DNA of 64,000 bases from Peptococcaceae bacterium 1109 (lineage in GTDB: Bacteria; Bacillota; Limnochordia; Darwinibacteriales; Darwinibacteriaceae). The notes below the pieces were generated by a model, which was given only the letters and a program-made list of their open reading frames with translations, was not told the DNA's origin and searched no databases. The stretch covers positions 186,001 through 250,000 of the forward strand of contig LDJB01000002.1 of NCBI GenBank assembly GCA_001028815.1, in the 5' to 3' direction. Made by a program: the position numbers and the translations under genes. This document shows, piece after piece, positions 6,767 to 13,818 of this stretch. Position 1 is the stretch's first letter. Every line of letters starts with the position of its first letter.

Positions 6767-7618
6767 TTATGCCTCCCGTCGCGCTTCAATCGCTTTTCTC
6801 GTCTTAGTGATACATGCTTGGAACCTGTCGAAGTCTTGGAGAACGGTGCTAATAAACAAAGCATCTATAGCACTGAGCTGCGCGATGCGGGACGAGATGG
6901 CCCCGGAACGGAAAACGTGCTCCCTGGAGGCGGTGAGGAGGACTATATCACACAGCTGGGCAAGGCGAGATTTGGAGAAGTTAGTAATGCAGATCGTGAC
7001 AGCCCCTGCCTCTTTAGCCAACTCGATGGCATGGGAGATTTCATAGGTATCTCCTGAGTAAGAGATTCCCACAGCAACATCCCCAGGGTTGAGCAGCACT
7101 GCCCGGGTAATCTGCATATGGGCATCCACGAAGGACCTGGCAGGAAGGCCGATACGCGCGAACTTCTGCTCCGCATCTTGTGCGACTAAGCCGCTTGCCC
7201 CAATCCCGTAAAAGTGAATCTCCCGGGCACTAAGAATCGCGTGGACCGCCTCTTCAAGGGCTGATTCGGACAGTGTCAAGGCCGTATCCTGCAGAGCTTG
7301 AATGTTGCTTTGGAAGATCTTATCTTTGACTGTGCCTAAAGAATCAGCAGGTTCGATTTCGCCGTAAACTGGTTGGGGCTTGGTAACCACATCCTGGGCG
7401 AGAAGAATCTTGAACTCCTGGAAACCCTTGTACCCCAGGCGCTTGCAGAACTTCACTACTGTAGCATCGCTCACCTGAGCGCGGCGCCCCAGCTCGCTGA
7501 TGGTCATATGCACCGCCTGTTGGGGATTTTCCAGGATTTCGTTGGCAACTCGCTGTTCTGCAGGGCGCAGTGACGGCAAGACCCCGCGAATATGCAGTAA
7601 TGTGTTTGCTTGGCCCAT
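6767..7618 (-). CDS. MurR/RpiR family transcriptional regulator (HTH_6 + SIS)
   Basis: LGRRAQVSDATVVKFCKRLGYKGFQEFK HTH and SIS domain (FYGIGASGLVAQDAEQKFARIG...VGISYSGDTYE). Confidence 0.88.
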   Translation of the reverse strand: MGQANTLLHIRGVLPSLRPAEQRVANEILENPQQAVHMTISELGRRAQVSDATVVKFCKRLGYKGFQEFKILLAQDVVTKPQPVYGEIEPADSLGTVKDKIFQSNIQALQDTALTLSESALEEAVHAILSAREIHFYGIGASGLVAQDAEQKFARIGLPARSFVDAHMQITRAVLLNPGDVAVGISYSGDTYEISHAIELAKEAGAVTICITNFSKSRLAQLCDIVLLTASREHVFRSGAISSRIAQLSAIDALFISTVLQDFDRFQACITKTRKAIEARREA

Positions 7619-7645
7619 GTTCTCTCCCCCATTCTCTCCGGCGAA

Positions 7646-8569
7646 TCAGACACCAGCAAGTTCCAGCGCCCGGCCCACAACTCCTTCGCCCTTATCCAGC
7701 AGGTCTAAGGCTCGTTCTATGGTGCAGTTAGCCTGCGCCATGACAATTGCGGCCTTGATATTCCACTGGGCGGCCTCTAGGTACTCCCAGGCCTTCTCCT
7801 GCGACACACCAGTTGTTTCTACCACGATATGCTGGGCCCTCTTCTTGAGTTTCATGTTGGTGGGAATCATATCCACCATGAAGTTCTGGTAAACCTTCCC
7901 CAATTTGATCATCACCGTGGTGCTGAGCATGTTGAGCACCATCTTCTGCGCTGTTCCTGCCTTCATGCGGGTAGAACCTGCAATAATCTCTGGTCCCACG
8001 ATCACAGCGATGGCCACTTGGGCAGCCCCTTCCATGGCACTGGGCGAGTTGCACACTAGGGCAATGGTGGAGGCCCCTGCTTTCTCGGCCCCATGGAGGG
8101 TACCGAGGACGTATGGAGTCCGCCCGCTTGCGGATATCCCTACCACAACGTCCTTACTGTTAAGGCCTACTGCTTCCACATCCTTGATCCCTGCTTCGTA
8201 GTCATCCTCTGCCTTCTCCACGGGGGAGAAAACGGCAGCCCGCCCGCCGGCGATGATTGCCTTTACCTTGTCGTCGCCCACACCAAAGGTGGGAAGAAGT
8301 TCTGCCGCATCGAGAATGCCCAGCCGGCCACTGGTTCCAGAACCTGTGTAGATCAGGCGCCCCCCGCGCTTAAAGGCGGCAGTGATAAGGTCAGCGGCCT
8401 GGACGATCTGGGGGACAGCTTGAGCCACTGCCTCAACCACTTTGCTGTCCTCGGCAGCAATCAAGCGGACGATCTCCTCTGTAGATAATCTGTCAATGTT
8501 ATTAGAAGCAGCATTGCGCTGTTCGGTAGTTAAGACAGTAAGCTGATCCAGATCATATTCCAGTCCCAT
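7646..8569 (-). CDS. murQ: N-acetylmuramic acid 6-phosphate etherase
   Basis: LTTEQRNAASNNIDRLSTEEIVRLI, RLIYTGSGTSGRLGILDAAELLPTFG, AGSTRMKAGTAQKMVLNMLST; preferred ATG at 8569 (ORF track 8602). Confidence 0.95.
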   Translation of the reverse strand: MGLEYDLDQLTVLTTEQRNAASNNIDRLSTEEIVRLIAAEDSKVVEAVAQAVPQIVQAADLITAAFKRGGRLIYTGSGTSGRLGILDAAELLPTFGVGDDKVKAIIAGGRAAVFSPVEKAEDDYEAGIKDVEAVGLNSKDVVVGISASGRTPYVLGTLHGAEKAGASTIALVCNSPSAMEGAAQVAIAVIVGPEIIAGSTRMKAGTAQKMVLNMLSTTVMIKLGKVYQNFMVDMIPTNMKLKKRAQHIVVETTGVSQEKAWEYLEAAQWNIKAAIVMAQANCTIERALDLLDKGEGVVGRALELAGV

Positions 8570-8689
8570 GGGGCACAACCTTTCTACAACATTCTTCACC
8601 ATAAGTTATTCGCAGTTCAAGTAAAAAATCCTTCCTGAACACCGTCTGGTGGCGCAACGAACTAACTATGGCAATCCATAGGACTGAGG

Positions 8690-8718
8690 TTGACAATTAT
8701 CTGACTTTTTTATATAAT
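8690..8718 (+). promoter_or_regulatory. Sigma-A-type promoter: TTGACA - 17 bp - TATAAT
   Basis: ttgaca(8690-8695) N17 tataat(8713-8718), upstream of the ATG at 8741. Confidence 0.8.
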
Positions 8719-8740
8719 TCCTACAAAGGTTGGTGATCAT

Positions 8741-9292
8741 ATGTGGCTCGTCCTTGCCCTTACCCTACTGGCCCACAGTGCTCCGTGGCTGGAGTTGACA
8801 TACAGCGGCATAACTCCCCAGTTGTATGAGTGGGACTGCGCCCCGGCCTGTGCTGATACGCTCCTGAGCTGGTCCCAAATCCCTGTTCAGGATGGAATCT
8901 GGGAAGAAGTCACAGAGCCCGGGAAGCCCATCTCCTTCAGGCACCTGCAGCACTACTTCGCGGCATACAGCCTGGAGGCTGCAGGGTACCGCCTAGATTG
9001 GGATGCCTTCAGCAGCTTTCTGGAGGGAAACAGGGGCACCCCCCTCCTAGTCCACTTTACTGAAGGCAAGGGCCATTTTGCCCTGGTGTGGGATTTGGCC
9101 CCAGAGGGAGTGCTCACTGGCGATCCGGCCCACGGTGTCCAGTTCATCCCTGAGCGCCACTTTCGGTACCTATGGTCTGGAGCCGTCCTCCATTTTCCAG
9201 ATCTCCACCGGCTCTCTGATGCCCTCGCGGTATCCGATGCAGCCCGCGGCCGAGCCCAGCTCCTGCAAGCTGTAGGAATGATAAGGCCATAG
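8741..9292 (+). CDS. Secreted C39-like (papain-fold) cysteine peptidase, stand-alone
   Basis: Signal-like N-terminus; QLYEWDCAPACADTLL (Gln at -6 and Cys as in C39), GHFALVWDLAPEGVLTGDPAHG (His...Asp). No ABC transporter domains. Confidence 0.7.
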   Translation: MWLVLALTLLAHSAPWLELTYSGITPQLYEWDCAPACADTLLSWSQIPVQDGIWEEVTEPGKPISFRHLQHYFAAYSLEAAGYRLDWDAFSSFLEGNRGTPLLVHFTEGKGHFALVWDLAPEGVLTGDPAHGVQFIPERHFRYLWSGAVLHFPDLHRLSDALAVSDAARGRAQLLQAVGMIRP

Positions 9293-9310
9293 TTGTGAAA
9301 GGATGAGAGA

Positions 9311-9943
9311 ATGAAGCGATGTGCTGTTTCCCTAATGCTAATACTGCTGCTCGCCGTCATGGCCCTCCCCACCAAGGCCCAGTGGGTGGTTGAAACCAGC
9401 CTCACCACCGTAGTCTACCAGCTCCCGAGGGAGAACATCGTCCAGCGCTTTGGCGTCCTTGAGCTGGGCCGCATGTGGCGCTGGGGAGAAAAAACCTCCA
9501 TGCAGGTCTCTCTCCCCACAGGGCTTGCCAACCCTGGAGGTGAGTTCCAGGCCACTGTGGGATGGCCCCGGGTGAAGTTGCAGGCAGCAGCTCCAACCCT
9601 GTGGGGGCCCCATGCACGGATCCAGCTCGAATGGGATCCGAACGGGCCCCAGGCCAGTGCTGAACTGGGCCTTGAGGCCACATGGGACCCGCTGTTAACC
9701 TACGCATCTTGTGCTTTCGCCCCCGGGGGCTGGGGGCTGAAAGGCGGGGTGGTGTTTGCCGCTAACCGCAGCTGGGCCCTGGGAGCTCACCTAACCTACC
9801 AAGGGCTTTCACAGCACAACCCCGCATCCAGTTTGACTTATCAGGTGTATTACCAACCGCCCTCTGGGCCAGCGATGGAACTCACCTATACGTACCACCT
9901 ACATCTAGCCCAACAGCGCTTAGGAATTAAGATGCTCTTTTGA
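9311..9943 (+). CDS. Exported beta-barrel-like (outer-membrane-type) protein
   Basis: Signal peptide MKRCAVSLMLILLLAVMALPTKAQ; repeated alternating amphipathic strands rich in aromatics (VVETSLTTVVYQL, ARIQLEWD, ASAELGLEATWD, MELTYTYHLHL) and C-terminal ...RLGIKMLF ending in Phe. Confidence 0.5.
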   Translation: MKRCAVSLMLILLLAVMALPTKAQWVVETSLTTVVYQLPRENIVQRFGVLELGRMWRWGEKTSMQVSLPTGLANPGGEFQATVGWPRVKLQAAAPTLWGPHARIQLEWDPNGPQASAELGLEATWDPLLTYASCAFAPGGWGLKGGVVFAANRSWALGAHLTYQGLSQHNPASSLTYQVYYQPPSGPAMELTYTYHLHLAQQRLGIKMLF

Positions 9944-11728
9944 CAGCTCTTCCAGCTCCGCCAAGAGCTCGCCAAAGACCTGCATGGCAGAGGTGATGGG
10001 CTGTGGAGAAGTCATATCCACCCCCGCGTTCTTCAGGAGTTCGATGGGGTAGTCGGAGCCGCCGCTGCCTAAGAAGGCTAGATAACGCTGGCGAGCTGGT
10101 TCGCCCTCTGTGAGGATCTGCTCCGCCAGGGCAATGGCTGCGGAAAAGCCAGTTGCATATTGATACACATAGAACGGACGGTAGAAGTGGGGGATCCGAG
10201 CCCATTCTAGGGCGATCAGGGGATCAACCACAATATCCTTGCCGTAGTACTTTTTGTTCAACCCATAGTAGATCTCGGAGAGCTGATCAGCAGTGAGGGA
10301 TTCCCCCTTGTTCACCTTGTCGTGCACGATGAGTTCGAACTCAGCAAACATGGTCTGCCGGAACACTGTACCCCGGAACTGCTCCAGGAAGTGGTTGAGC
10401 AAGTACATCCGTTGCTTGGGAGACTCGGTCTTGCTCAAGAGGTGACGCATGACCAAGGCCTCATTCACCGTTGAAGCCACTTCCGCCACAAAGATGCTGT
10501 ACTGGGCGTTGACAAAGGGCTGGTTTTTGTCGGAGTAGTACGAGTGCATCGCGTGCCCAAGTTCGTGGGCGAGAGTAAACATATTATCCAGGTTATCCTG
10601 GTAGTTCATCAAGACATAGGGGTGCACCCCATATGTCCCCCACGAGTAAGCCCCACTGGTCTTGCCCCGATTCTCCAACCAGTCAATCCAACCATCGGTG
10701 AACGCTTGCTTGAGGTCATTAAGGTAAGTGGGGCCCAGGGCCTCCAAGCCTTCCTGCACCATAGCGGCCGCGGCTTCCCTAGGTATGGTTTGCTGTTCGT
10801 CGTGGACCATGGGCACGTACAGGTCGTACATGTGGAGTTCATCCACTCCCAGAAGCTCCTTTCGCAGAGCCACATACTTGTGGAGGAGCTCCAGGTTGCC
10901 CTCGATGGCCTGGATCAGGTTGTGGTATACCTCAGGCTGGACATTGTCGCTGTCCAGGGCTGCTTCCAAGGCAGAGTTGTACCGCCTTGTCTTGGCAAAA
11001 AACCGCGCCTGCTTCAGCTCAGAGGTATACATCGCGCCTAAGGTGTTCTTCCACTTCTCGTATGTGGTATAAAGCGCGGTAAAGGCCTCTTCCCGCACGC
11101 GGCGATCCCGAGATTCCAGGAACTGAATGTACCGCCCGTGGGTCAGCTCCACCTTTTCCCCTTCCTCGTTGGTTATCTCCGGGAACTTCAGATCTGCATC
11201 ATTGAACATCCCGAAGATAACGCCTGGTGCCGAACCTAGCTCCCCTGCTCCTGCCAAGAGCTCTTCCTGTTCCGCAGAGAGGGTATGGGCTTTTCGGCGA
11301 AGGATGTTGTGGAGAAAATGGCGGTAGGCTTCAAGCTCGGGCTCAGCCTCAACCCATTCCCACACCACGGCACTGTCCAGGCTTAAGATCTCCGGTTCGA
11401 GGAAAGCGGAAGCACTGTTGGCCATGACCATCAGGCTCAGGGCCTGGTCAGCGTAGGCTTGGTATTTGCTGTTGCTGTTGTCCTCATCGCGCCGCATATA
11501 CGCATAGGCGAAGATGCGATCTATCAGCATGGCCAGTTCATCCCTGCGCCTTAGGGCATGCAACAGCCTCTCCTTGGAAGTAATGGTTCCCCTAAGTTCC
11601 CCGACCCCGGCGAGGCTGTCTTTGGCCTTCGCAAGGTCCTGTTCAAACAGTTCATCAGAAGCGTAAATATCCTCCAAACGCCACTTAAGTTCCGCAGGCA
11701 CCTCGTGCCTTGCCAATACCTTACTCAT
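9920..11728 (-). CDS. pepF: Oligoendopeptidase F (M3 family)
   Basis: TLAHELGHAMHSYYSDKNQPF (HExxH) and VAEVASTVNEALVM; full-length M3B family layout. Confidence 0.95.
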   Translation of the reverse strand: MSKVLARHEVPAELKWRLEDIYASDELFEQDLAKAKDSLAGVGELRGTITSKERLLHALRRRDELAMLIDRIFAYAYMRRDEDNSNSKYQAYADQALSLMVMANSASAFLEPEILSLDSAVVWEWVEAEPELEAYRHFLHNILRRKAHTLSAEQEELLAGAGELGSAPGVIFGMFNDADLKFPEITNEEGEKVELTHGRYIQFLESRDRRVREEAFTALYTTYEKWKNTLGAMYTSELKQARFFAKTRRYNSALEAALDSDNVQPEVYHNLIQAIEGNLELLHKYVALRKELLGVDELHMYDLYVPMVHDEQQTIPREAAAAMVQEGLEALGPTYLNDLKQAFTDGWIDWLENRGKTSGAYSWGTYGVHPYVLMNYQDNLDNMFTLAHELGHAMHSYYSDKNQPFVNAQYSIFVAEVASTVNEALVMRHLLSKTESPKQRMYLLNHFLEQFRGTVFRQTMFAEFELIVHDKVNKGESLTADQLSEIYYGLNKKYYGKDIVVDPLIALEWARIPHFYRPFYVYQYATGFSAAIALAEQILTEGEPARQRYLAFLGSGGSDYPIELLKNAGVDMTSPQPITSAMQVFGELLAELEELSKEHLNS

Positions 11729-12379: not shown

Positions 12380-12853
12380 TCAGAAAATATCTATTTCACC
12401 CAATAGTTCTTTGTCTCGGTTGACAAATCGGATTGTTTCCACGCCTTCCAAATGTTCCTTGGGTAGTGTAATCATGTCCTTTGGGTAGGTGAACGCCATA
12501 GTGACCATTGCACCAGGTGCAGGACTTCTCCGGCTCACTTGCACCACCAAAACCCGCCCCACCGCATGGACTCCATCGATTTGCACCGCATAGCCCCCGG
12601 TGGGATGCTCCCCGAGATAAACTAGGATGGGGAACTCCTGCTCCCAATCTACCTCAGGCAGGTTGGGGGGCATAGGTTCTAACTGGGCCAGCTGCCGCTC
12701 CCACTCCTCTTGCGTCCCAGCTGCGGCAAACTGAAGTGGCCGGTTGCCTTCATACGCCCAGCTTGCTGTATCCCGGGGATTCTCATACAGTACCACTTCA
12801 TTCGCCCCCAAAAGTATAAACCCCACCAACAGCGCGAAAATCAGCCTGTACAT
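12380..12853 (-). CDS. Exported protein with PrcB C-terminal-like domain
   Basis: ILVYLGEHPTGGYAVQIDGVHAVGRVLVVQVSRRSPAPGAMVTMAFTYPKDMITLPK resembles PrcB_C; N-terminal hydrophobic segment. Confidence 0.65.
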   Translation of the reverse strand: MYRLIFALLVGFILLGANEVVLYENPRDTASWAYEGNRPLQFAAAGTQEEWERQLAQLEPMPPNLPEVDWEQEFPILVYLGEHPTGGYAVQIDGVHAVGRVLVVQVSRRSPAPGAMVTMAFTYPKDMITLPKEHLEGVETIRFVNRDKELLGEIDIF

Positions 12854-12870: not shown

Positions 12871-13818
12871 CTACTCCTCAGGATTATCCGGTATCACCAA
12901 GACTTGGCCGGTACGGAGCCTGGAAGGATTAGAGATATTATTCGCCTCTGCAATCAGTCTATACAAACGAGCATCGCCGTAGACCTTCTCAGCAATGGTC
13001 CACAGGCTGTCCCCTCTAGCTACAACGTACTCCCGGGGCTTAGGCGGCTCCGGTCGCTGCTCCGCCGATTGAGATTGAGTTACGGATGGAGGAGCGGGAG
13101 TGACCGTCACCACCGACTCCTGGCCCGAAGGTACCGGAACGGGTTCCGTATTCTGCGCCACTTGAGAAGGGGACGGCTCTATATAGCGGCTGCTAACCCA
13201 CTGATACCCCAGCACCCCGGCGCATACTAAGAGAATGAACAGCAACAGCGATGCCACTCTTCGGGGCCAGCGAGCACCTCTTCCCCGATCACCCGATGGG
13301 CCGTATTCACTCCGCAAGATGTAGTAGCCAGGCAATTCACGCCAGGCATGATCCACGCAGTGGTACAGCGCCCGTTCCCCCAACTGGGCATCGATAACGT
13401 AAGCGATCTGCCACGGGCGGTTAAACAGCCGCTCGTGCTGCTGTTTATCAAAGGCAGAGAGGAAAACGCCAAATCCCGGATGGCTGTGCATCCAACCCAC
13501 AATCCGCAGGTTGCTGCCGCTGCTCTGTAAGGAGCGCTGCACCGCTTGGTAGTGGTCTTTTGTCAGGGCAAACCGCGATGCGCCTCCCCGGGCCTGAGCC
13601 AAGGGGACAAACTGGTCCACTACAATTTCATACTCCTCAAGGCTCTTGAGGTTGCGCTTTCTTCCCACCAAAAAACCGCCGCTTTCGCCTGAGGGATGCT
13701 CCTGGGCAAACTGGTCCATCTGGGCGAAGACTTCCTCTCGGAAAACGACGCGGGGAAAGGGTCCGGCTTGGCCCACCAAGAATCGTCTTACACCTACAAC
13801 CCTGGGATCCCCATTCAT
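12871..13818 (-). CDS. JAMM/MPN (Mov34-like) metalloprotease domain - TM helix - LysM fusion
   Basis: GESGGFLVG...GWMHSHPGFGVFLSAFD (E...HxH...SxxD JAMM motif); TM VASLLLFILLVCAGVLGYQWV; C-terminal LysM YVVARGDSLWTIAEKVYGDARLYRLIAEANNISNPSRLRTGQVLVIP. Confidence 0.82.
   Translation of the reverse strand: MNGDPRVVGVRRFLVGQAGPFPRVVFREEVFAQMDQFAQEHPSGESGGFLVGRKRNLKSLEEYEIVVDQFVPLAQARGGASRFALTKDHYQAVQRSLQSSGSNLRIVGWMHSHPGFGVFLSAFDKQQHERLFNRPWQIAYVIDAQLGERALYHCVDHAWRELPGYYILRSEYGPSGDRGRGARWPRRVASLLLFILLVCAGVLGYQWVSSRYIEPSPSQVAQNTEPVPVPSGQESVVTVTPAPPSVTQSQSAEQRPEPPKPREYVVARGDSLWTIAEKVYGDARLYRLIAEANNISNPSRLRTGQVLVIPDNPEE

Follow-up and report, generated by a model that had tools for sequence, protein, structure and literature searches.

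An exported C39 peptidase and a FapF-like barrel as the probable maturation and outer-membrane half of a peptide export system in diderm Bacillota

We have analyzed a window of 64,000 nucleotides from Peptococcaceae bacterium 1109 (contig LDJB01000002.1, positions 186,001 to 250,000), in which two plus-strand genes, 18 bp apart, are enclosed by minus-strand genes on both sides (Table 1). The arrangement is exactly the one claimed in a preliminary description of this DNA. The end of the oligopeptidase F gene and the second gene of the pair (ORF2) overlap by 24 bp.

Table 1. Features of the C39-barrel locus (positions in the window) and of the precursor locus (positions on contig C3 of the source genome)
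Feature	Position	Strand	Basis or remark
SIS-domain MurQ/GKRP-like protein gene, left flank of the pair	7646-8602	-	domain search
Promoter of the pair, TTGACA-17-TATAAT (sigma-A type, 12/12 consensus)	8690..8718	+	direct reading of the sequence
Exported stand-alone C39 cysteine peptidase, 183 aa	8741..9292	+	PF03412, AlphaFold2, Foldseek
Oxyanion Gln27 of the C39 peptidase	8819..8821	+	invariant in the alignment of relatives
Catalytic Cys33 of the C39 peptidase	8837..8839	+	invariant in the alignment of relatives
Catalytic His112 of the C39 peptidase	9074..9076	+	invariant in the alignment of relatives
Catalytic Asp128 of the C39 peptidase	9122..9124	+	near-invariant; Asn in G021, G022
Predicted FapF-like outer-membrane beta-barrel (ORF2), 210 aa, signal peptide, C-terminal Phe	9311..9943	+	AlphaFold2, Foldseek
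Oligopeptidase F gene, right flank of the pair	9920-11728	-	domain search
Precursor peptide (candidate substrate), 100 aa	C3:128080-128382
Small membrane protein gene	C3:128447-128761		TTG start behind AAAGGAG

The product of the first gene matches the Pfam family PF03412 (E=2.5e-10; 40.7 bits at a cut-off of 22) and its residues Q27, C33, H112 and D128 align with the C39 active site, which in CvaB is formed by Cys32/His105/Asp121 (PMC10233263). In the alignment of relatives P129 is invariant as well. The AlphaFold2 model, which was built on a 9-sequence alignment (pLDDT 77, pTM 0.72), folds like the C39 peptidases, and the top PDB folds retrieved by Foldseek were the ComA peptidase, the leader-bound PCAT peptidase 6mpz and PCAT1. 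A narrow C39 alignment yielded 8 loci in the contig search, and these loci also fed AlphaFold. Pfam detected no ABC membrane or ATPase domains within the 183 residues, so that the protein is not a PCAT. Judging from the sequence, the short hydrophobic segment at its N-terminus would be a signal peptide or an anchor; in the C39 proteins of family f1 the signal peptide is short and has few basic residues. The best match among the NCBIfam models was FilB (NF050078; E=0.0069), a putative C39 peptidase of a pilus system that likewise stands alone and belongs to a surface system, but with a score of 15.8 versus a cut-off of 475 the window protein is not a member of that family. Neither does it belong to the FapD equivalog NF058616 (score 10.9, cut-off 330). 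General proteases and degraders of peptidoglycan or peptides can be found among stand-alone C39-like and PeiR-type enzymes, and the window protein does show weak sequence similarity to PeiR and other papain-fold enzymes. It is nevertheless very improbable that the window protein is such a general envelope protease or degrader, unrelated to the precursor peptides described below: in sequence and in fold the double-glycine peptidases are closest to it, including 6mpz, which was solved with a leader peptide, and the precursors with a double-glycine-type leader co-occur exclusively with this type of enzyme.

For ORF2 the AlphaFold2 model (8-sequence alignment; pLDDT 86, pTM 0.74) begins with a signal helix, after which come 12-13 strands. 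In a Foldseek comparison with 350,542 PDB chains, ranks 1-16 were all taken by FapF, the best with E=4.3e-8 and a TMq of 0.66; FadL came next (1.5e-5), and KdgM and other channels were also among the fold matches. On the basis of the model the protein is predicted to be an outer-membrane barrel of about 12 strands that resembles FapF and, as far as the fold tells, may function like it. At the sequence level there is no match to FapF: a search of the PDB up to E=10 and a search of Pfam retrieved nothing for ORF2, and PF13557 and the other Pfam barrel families matched neither ORF2 nor eight divergent relatives. Moreover, FapF has an N-terminal periplasmic coiled coil and a plug, whereas the window barrel has neither, strand 1 of the model starting at residue 22, directly after the signal helix. 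These results bear out what had been read from the letters of the two genes, namely the C39 residues without ABC domains in the first protein and, in the second, alternating strands, a Phe at the C-terminus and a signal peptide, now seen as a hydrophobic helix at the N-terminus. The barrel fold of ORF2 had been put forward beforehand as a point on which the description could fail, as had the catalytic geometry of the C39 protein; both came out in its favor, FapF being the top structural match and all catalytic residues being present.

The class Limnochordia has been described as diderm, and three closed genomes have been reported for it (PMC11456536). Omp85 was found in 71 of the 73 class genomes, including the source genome, which supports a diderm envelope for the class of the source genome; the class carrying the pair is probably the Limnochordia, a diderm lineage of the Bacillota. 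Most of the class genomes are metagenome assemblies and absences are therefore weaker than presences. The C39 profile revealed an exported stand-alone C39 protein in 42 of the 73 genomes, with the Cys and His site intact in 39 of them (the proteins of G048, G038 and G030 could be read in part, up to where the alignment or the contig ends). Exceptions among the intact copies are an Asn for Asp in G021 and G022 and a missing Gln in G066. Nearly all exported C39 copies in the class are followed by an ORF2-type gene, and in family f1 each clear ORF2 homologue lies directly 3' of a C39 gene. Side by side, the two genes recur in about 12 families, which is more than chance would give, and the preliminary description, which had made conservation in relatives a test of its reading, is upheld by this comparison of gene neighborhoods. 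Iterative profiles tie the barrels of the other families, as well as that of G152, a genome from outside the class, to the window barrel; the same profiles gave no tie for the barrel of G053 and for the tails found in family f13. The latter are strand-rich stretches of 265-280 aa in frame with the C39 domain in three f13 genomes (G059, G048 and G066, at loci L046, L053 and L132), and, although they have no profile link, they are suggestive of a natural fusion of C39 and barrel. The barrel of G015, with 152 aa, was not counted as decay because the apparent gap is a run of N. Searches with PADLOC and PHROGs gave no matches.

In four genomes (G027, G051, G040 and G056) the pair is adjoined by a protein that combines a signal peptide with a double-glycine-type leader. 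The leader was first spotted through this adjacency and then used as a DNA pattern. A strict version of the pattern missed the precursor of the source genome because leader position 6 is Met there, and a looser version found it. This precursor is composed of a Sec signal peptide, the leader LSDAEMAEVEGE and a hydrophobic peptide rich in Gly and Ala, in consecutive parts MGKTITRFVALLLAITLLVPVGASAAADTPFGPGAV-PLSDAEMAEVEGE-FSPLVTSAVAGGLISTASYLITTPASQWTLGGAVRHAIAGAVSGLAGYFLR. The earlier remark that no substrate gene adjoins the pair thus stands for the window locus but falls for the genome as a whole, in which the search for GG-leader peptides that had been recommended delivered this candidate.

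A profile of the precursors gathered 33 of them, with the leader consensus L-S/T-x-E-E-L/M-x-x-V-x-G-E/A/G. Position -2 is G and position -12 hydrophobic in all 33, E is found at -8 and V/I/L at -4 in 30 each, and L/M at -7 in 28. The leaders of class II microcins and bacteriocins of the CvaB type share the E at -8, the hydrophobic residues at -4/-7/-12 and an ending on G(G/A), and the C39 domain of CvaB shares the Cys/His/Asp triad (PMC10233263). The final residue of the leader, at -1, is E in 18 precursors, A in 8, G in 4, D in 2 and K in 1; GE is therefore the commonest ending, atypical compared with the GG/GA of the class II leaders, and as most leaders end in this way the exact cut site is uncertain. 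The mature parts are 47-109 aa long, with 18-41% Gly+Ala and at most 6.4% N+Q. They are hydrophobic and Gly-zipper-like, a motif SYLxTTPxSxW is recognizable across families, and no fitting family was found in Pfam or NCBIfam. Nearly all precursor-bearing genomes have a single precursor. In the family of the source genome the precursor and the C39-barrel pair are at separate loci, and compact clusters occur in G027, G040, G051, G056, G057, G067 and G068. Many matches to the leader pattern were discarded because they belonged to ordinary proteins, among them RecA, carbamoyl-phosphate synthase, GatC and dihydrolipoamide dehydrogenase. The profile match in G081 proved on reading to be an RHS-like Gly-rich ORF, the one in G239 had no leader, and those at G000:C1:1048049 and in G024 were unrelated long ORFs. 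At another locus (L022, 4813-5424 as oriented) a protein is encoded that consists of DCSREEIDCKREE-type repeats, i.e. low-complexity heptads.

The C39-barrel pair and the precursor occur together, and are lost together, across the class. The precursor is present in 31 of the 73 genomes, that is in 31 of the 39 with an intact exported C39 and in none of the 34 others (Fisher p=1.6e-13). The association persists with one entry per genus (p=2.4e-8), per family (p=0.0027) and when labels are shuffled within families (p<=5e-5). For eight genomes with an intact C39 no precursor was detected (G003, G015, all three of family f6 and three of f11), which would be due to incompleteness or divergence. In three genomes of family f1 the active site has decayed, to HSYD (G018), ECGD (G014) and NCRD (G019), and there both the barrel and the precursor are missing. 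At L025, L036 and L039 the conserved site beside oligopeptidase F holds a C39 gene in decay, its catalytic residues destroyed and the barrel deleted. A phylum-wide search by the precursor profile alone led to G152, where a precursor, a small membrane protein, a C39 protein and a barrel-like protein are encoded side by side. None of these three lines of evidence, i.e. the co-occurrence test, the decayed copies and G152, depends on the adjacency step that revealed the leader. Together, co-occurrence and co-loss of the pair and the precursor point to an undescribed route of peptide export.

An alternative for the barrel is that of an ordinary small porin, transcribed from the same promoter as the C39 gene; the peptidase alone would then act on the precursor, with the peptide being released or inserted by another route. 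Beta-barrels are common, channels such as KdgM are among the fold matches, and the transit of the peptide through the barrel is something that we infer. We consider this unlikely, given that the two genes keep together in so many families, that FapF precedes every other fold, that the genomes with a destroyed active site lost the barrel along with the precursor, and that three f13 genomes have a C39 domain and a strand-rich tail, albeit one without a profile link, in one ORF.

Of the 30 precursor genes whose downstream sequence is long enough, 25 are followed by a gene for a small membrane protein, versus 14 of 233 control genes (6%; p=2.6e-20), and such a gene is present in the source genome as well (Table 1). 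Bacteriocin-immunity pairs have this same layout. By analogy, the small membrane protein may protect the producer or handle the peptide. In G051 a multi-pass membrane protein, larger than the usual partner (199 aa), is encoded between the precursor and C39 genes (L042, oriented 7453-8106). We rate the chances of a bacteriocin-like role of the mature peptide as about even. A somewhat less probable, yet serious, alternative is that the same maturation route yields a surface peptide with a structural or adhesive role, or a small membrane-inserted protein, with the membrane partner as its anchor or chaperone. There is one precursor per genome nearly throughout, conserved by descent, and the mature motif stays recognizable across families, a slower change than expected for a peptide used in warfare; in addition, Fap makes surface fibres (PMC5557850). 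Against this speak the small size of the mature peptides, their hydrophobic, Gly-zipper-like character with few N and Q, the lack of a fitting Pfam or NCBIfam family, and the membrane gene that accompanies them as in bacteriocin-immunity pairs.

Considering the computational evidence as a whole, we propose, with a probability of roughly 70%, that diderm Bacillota possess a multi-gene system for peptide export, in which the pair constitutes the half for maturation and the outer membrane. The preliminary description had suggested that the pair could be a minimal module for processing and secretion or for surface maturation; this is supported, with the amendment that the candidate substrate is encoded, in this family, at another locus and that the cargo is not amyloid-like. 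Within this proposal, we lean slightly towards a previously undescribed two-step route for double-glycine-leader peptides that involves Sec, an exported C39 peptidase in the periplasm, a FapF-like barrel and a membrane partner or immunity protein. Sec would carry the precursor across the inner membrane, after which signal peptidase would leave a pro-peptide with a short linker and the double-glycine-type leader. The exported C39 peptidase would then bind the leader and cleave at the end of the G-E/A/G motif, or inside it, in the periplasm rather than within an ABC exporter. The freed Gly/Ala-rich hydrophobic peptide of 47-109 aa would exit via the adjacent FapF-like barrel and may have antibacterial activity once secreted, and the small membrane protein encoded beside the precursor might shield the inner membrane of the producer or handle the peptide. 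A literature search of partial coverage yielded no description of a combined Sec and double-glycine export route, which is a weak sign of novelty.

Export and cleavage by a PCAT does not fit the data: a signal peptide precedes the leader, and 26 of the 31 precursor-bearing genomes, including the source genome, have no other C39 domain (E<=0.001), so that no ABC-type peptidase is available there for the leader. The class II microcins and bacteriocins do share a short hydrophobic peptide beside a small membrane protein, but here a Sec signal peptide comes before the leader, the peptidase is exported without ABC domains, and no one-step export of the TolC type is implied. Related double-glycine-leader peptides that have no signal peptide occur in G034 and G025, which possess ABC-type C39 exporters. 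At two loci from class genomes with such exporters (L155:1248-1508 and L156:1250-1513) canonical double-glycine bacteriocin-like peptides, LSEEQLQEIDGG and LSESELEKIEGG, were found without a signal peptide.

The Fap system of Pseudomonas shares with the present one a Sec-exported stand-alone C39 protein, a barrel for which FapF is the best structural match in the PDB, and export in two steps, the processing taking place outside the cytoplasm (PMC5557850). FapD- and FapF-like parts could thus belong to a true Fap amyloid system with unrecognized amyloid subunits. This is extremely improbable, however, as the C39 protein falls far below the FapD cut-off, the barrel has no coiled coil, and neither window protein matches the FapD or FapF models at the sequence level. 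Moreover, Fap cargo is N/Q-rich, with the N/Q-repeat subunits FapB and FapC, whereas the cargo found here has at most 6.4% N+Q, is accompanied by a small membrane protein and is a Gly/Ala-rich peptide with a recognizable double-glycine-type leader, and we therefore regard the system as Fap-like machinery with a bacteriocin-like cargo rather than as a Fap system.

To our knowledge, FapD is the only periplasmic C39 enzyme that has been studied well. Its Cys is needed for Fap secretion, and the study that characterized it described its target as unclear and called this class of C39 peptidases uncharacterized (PMC5557850). The system described here provides exported C39 enzymes with a concrete, genetically linked candidate target that has a recognizable leader, and its presence in closed genomes, apparently those of the three cultivated Limnochordia, makes the question of that target directly testable. 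If the proposal is true, exported C39 peptidases, possibly including FapD, recognize double-glycine-type leaders behind Sec signal peptides. Hidden secreted peptides could then be searched for by a simple rule, a double-glycine-type leader placed after a signal peptide. The system would also extend Fap-like peptide export to the diderm Bacillota, a lineage that is used in arguments on the origin of the outer membrane.

Further along the window, a minus-strand gene (12871-13818) combines a prokaryotic JAB metalloprotease domain (PF14464), a transmembrane stretch and LysM (PF01476) in one protein, and it is adjoined by a gene for a PrcB_C-domain protein (12380-12853).
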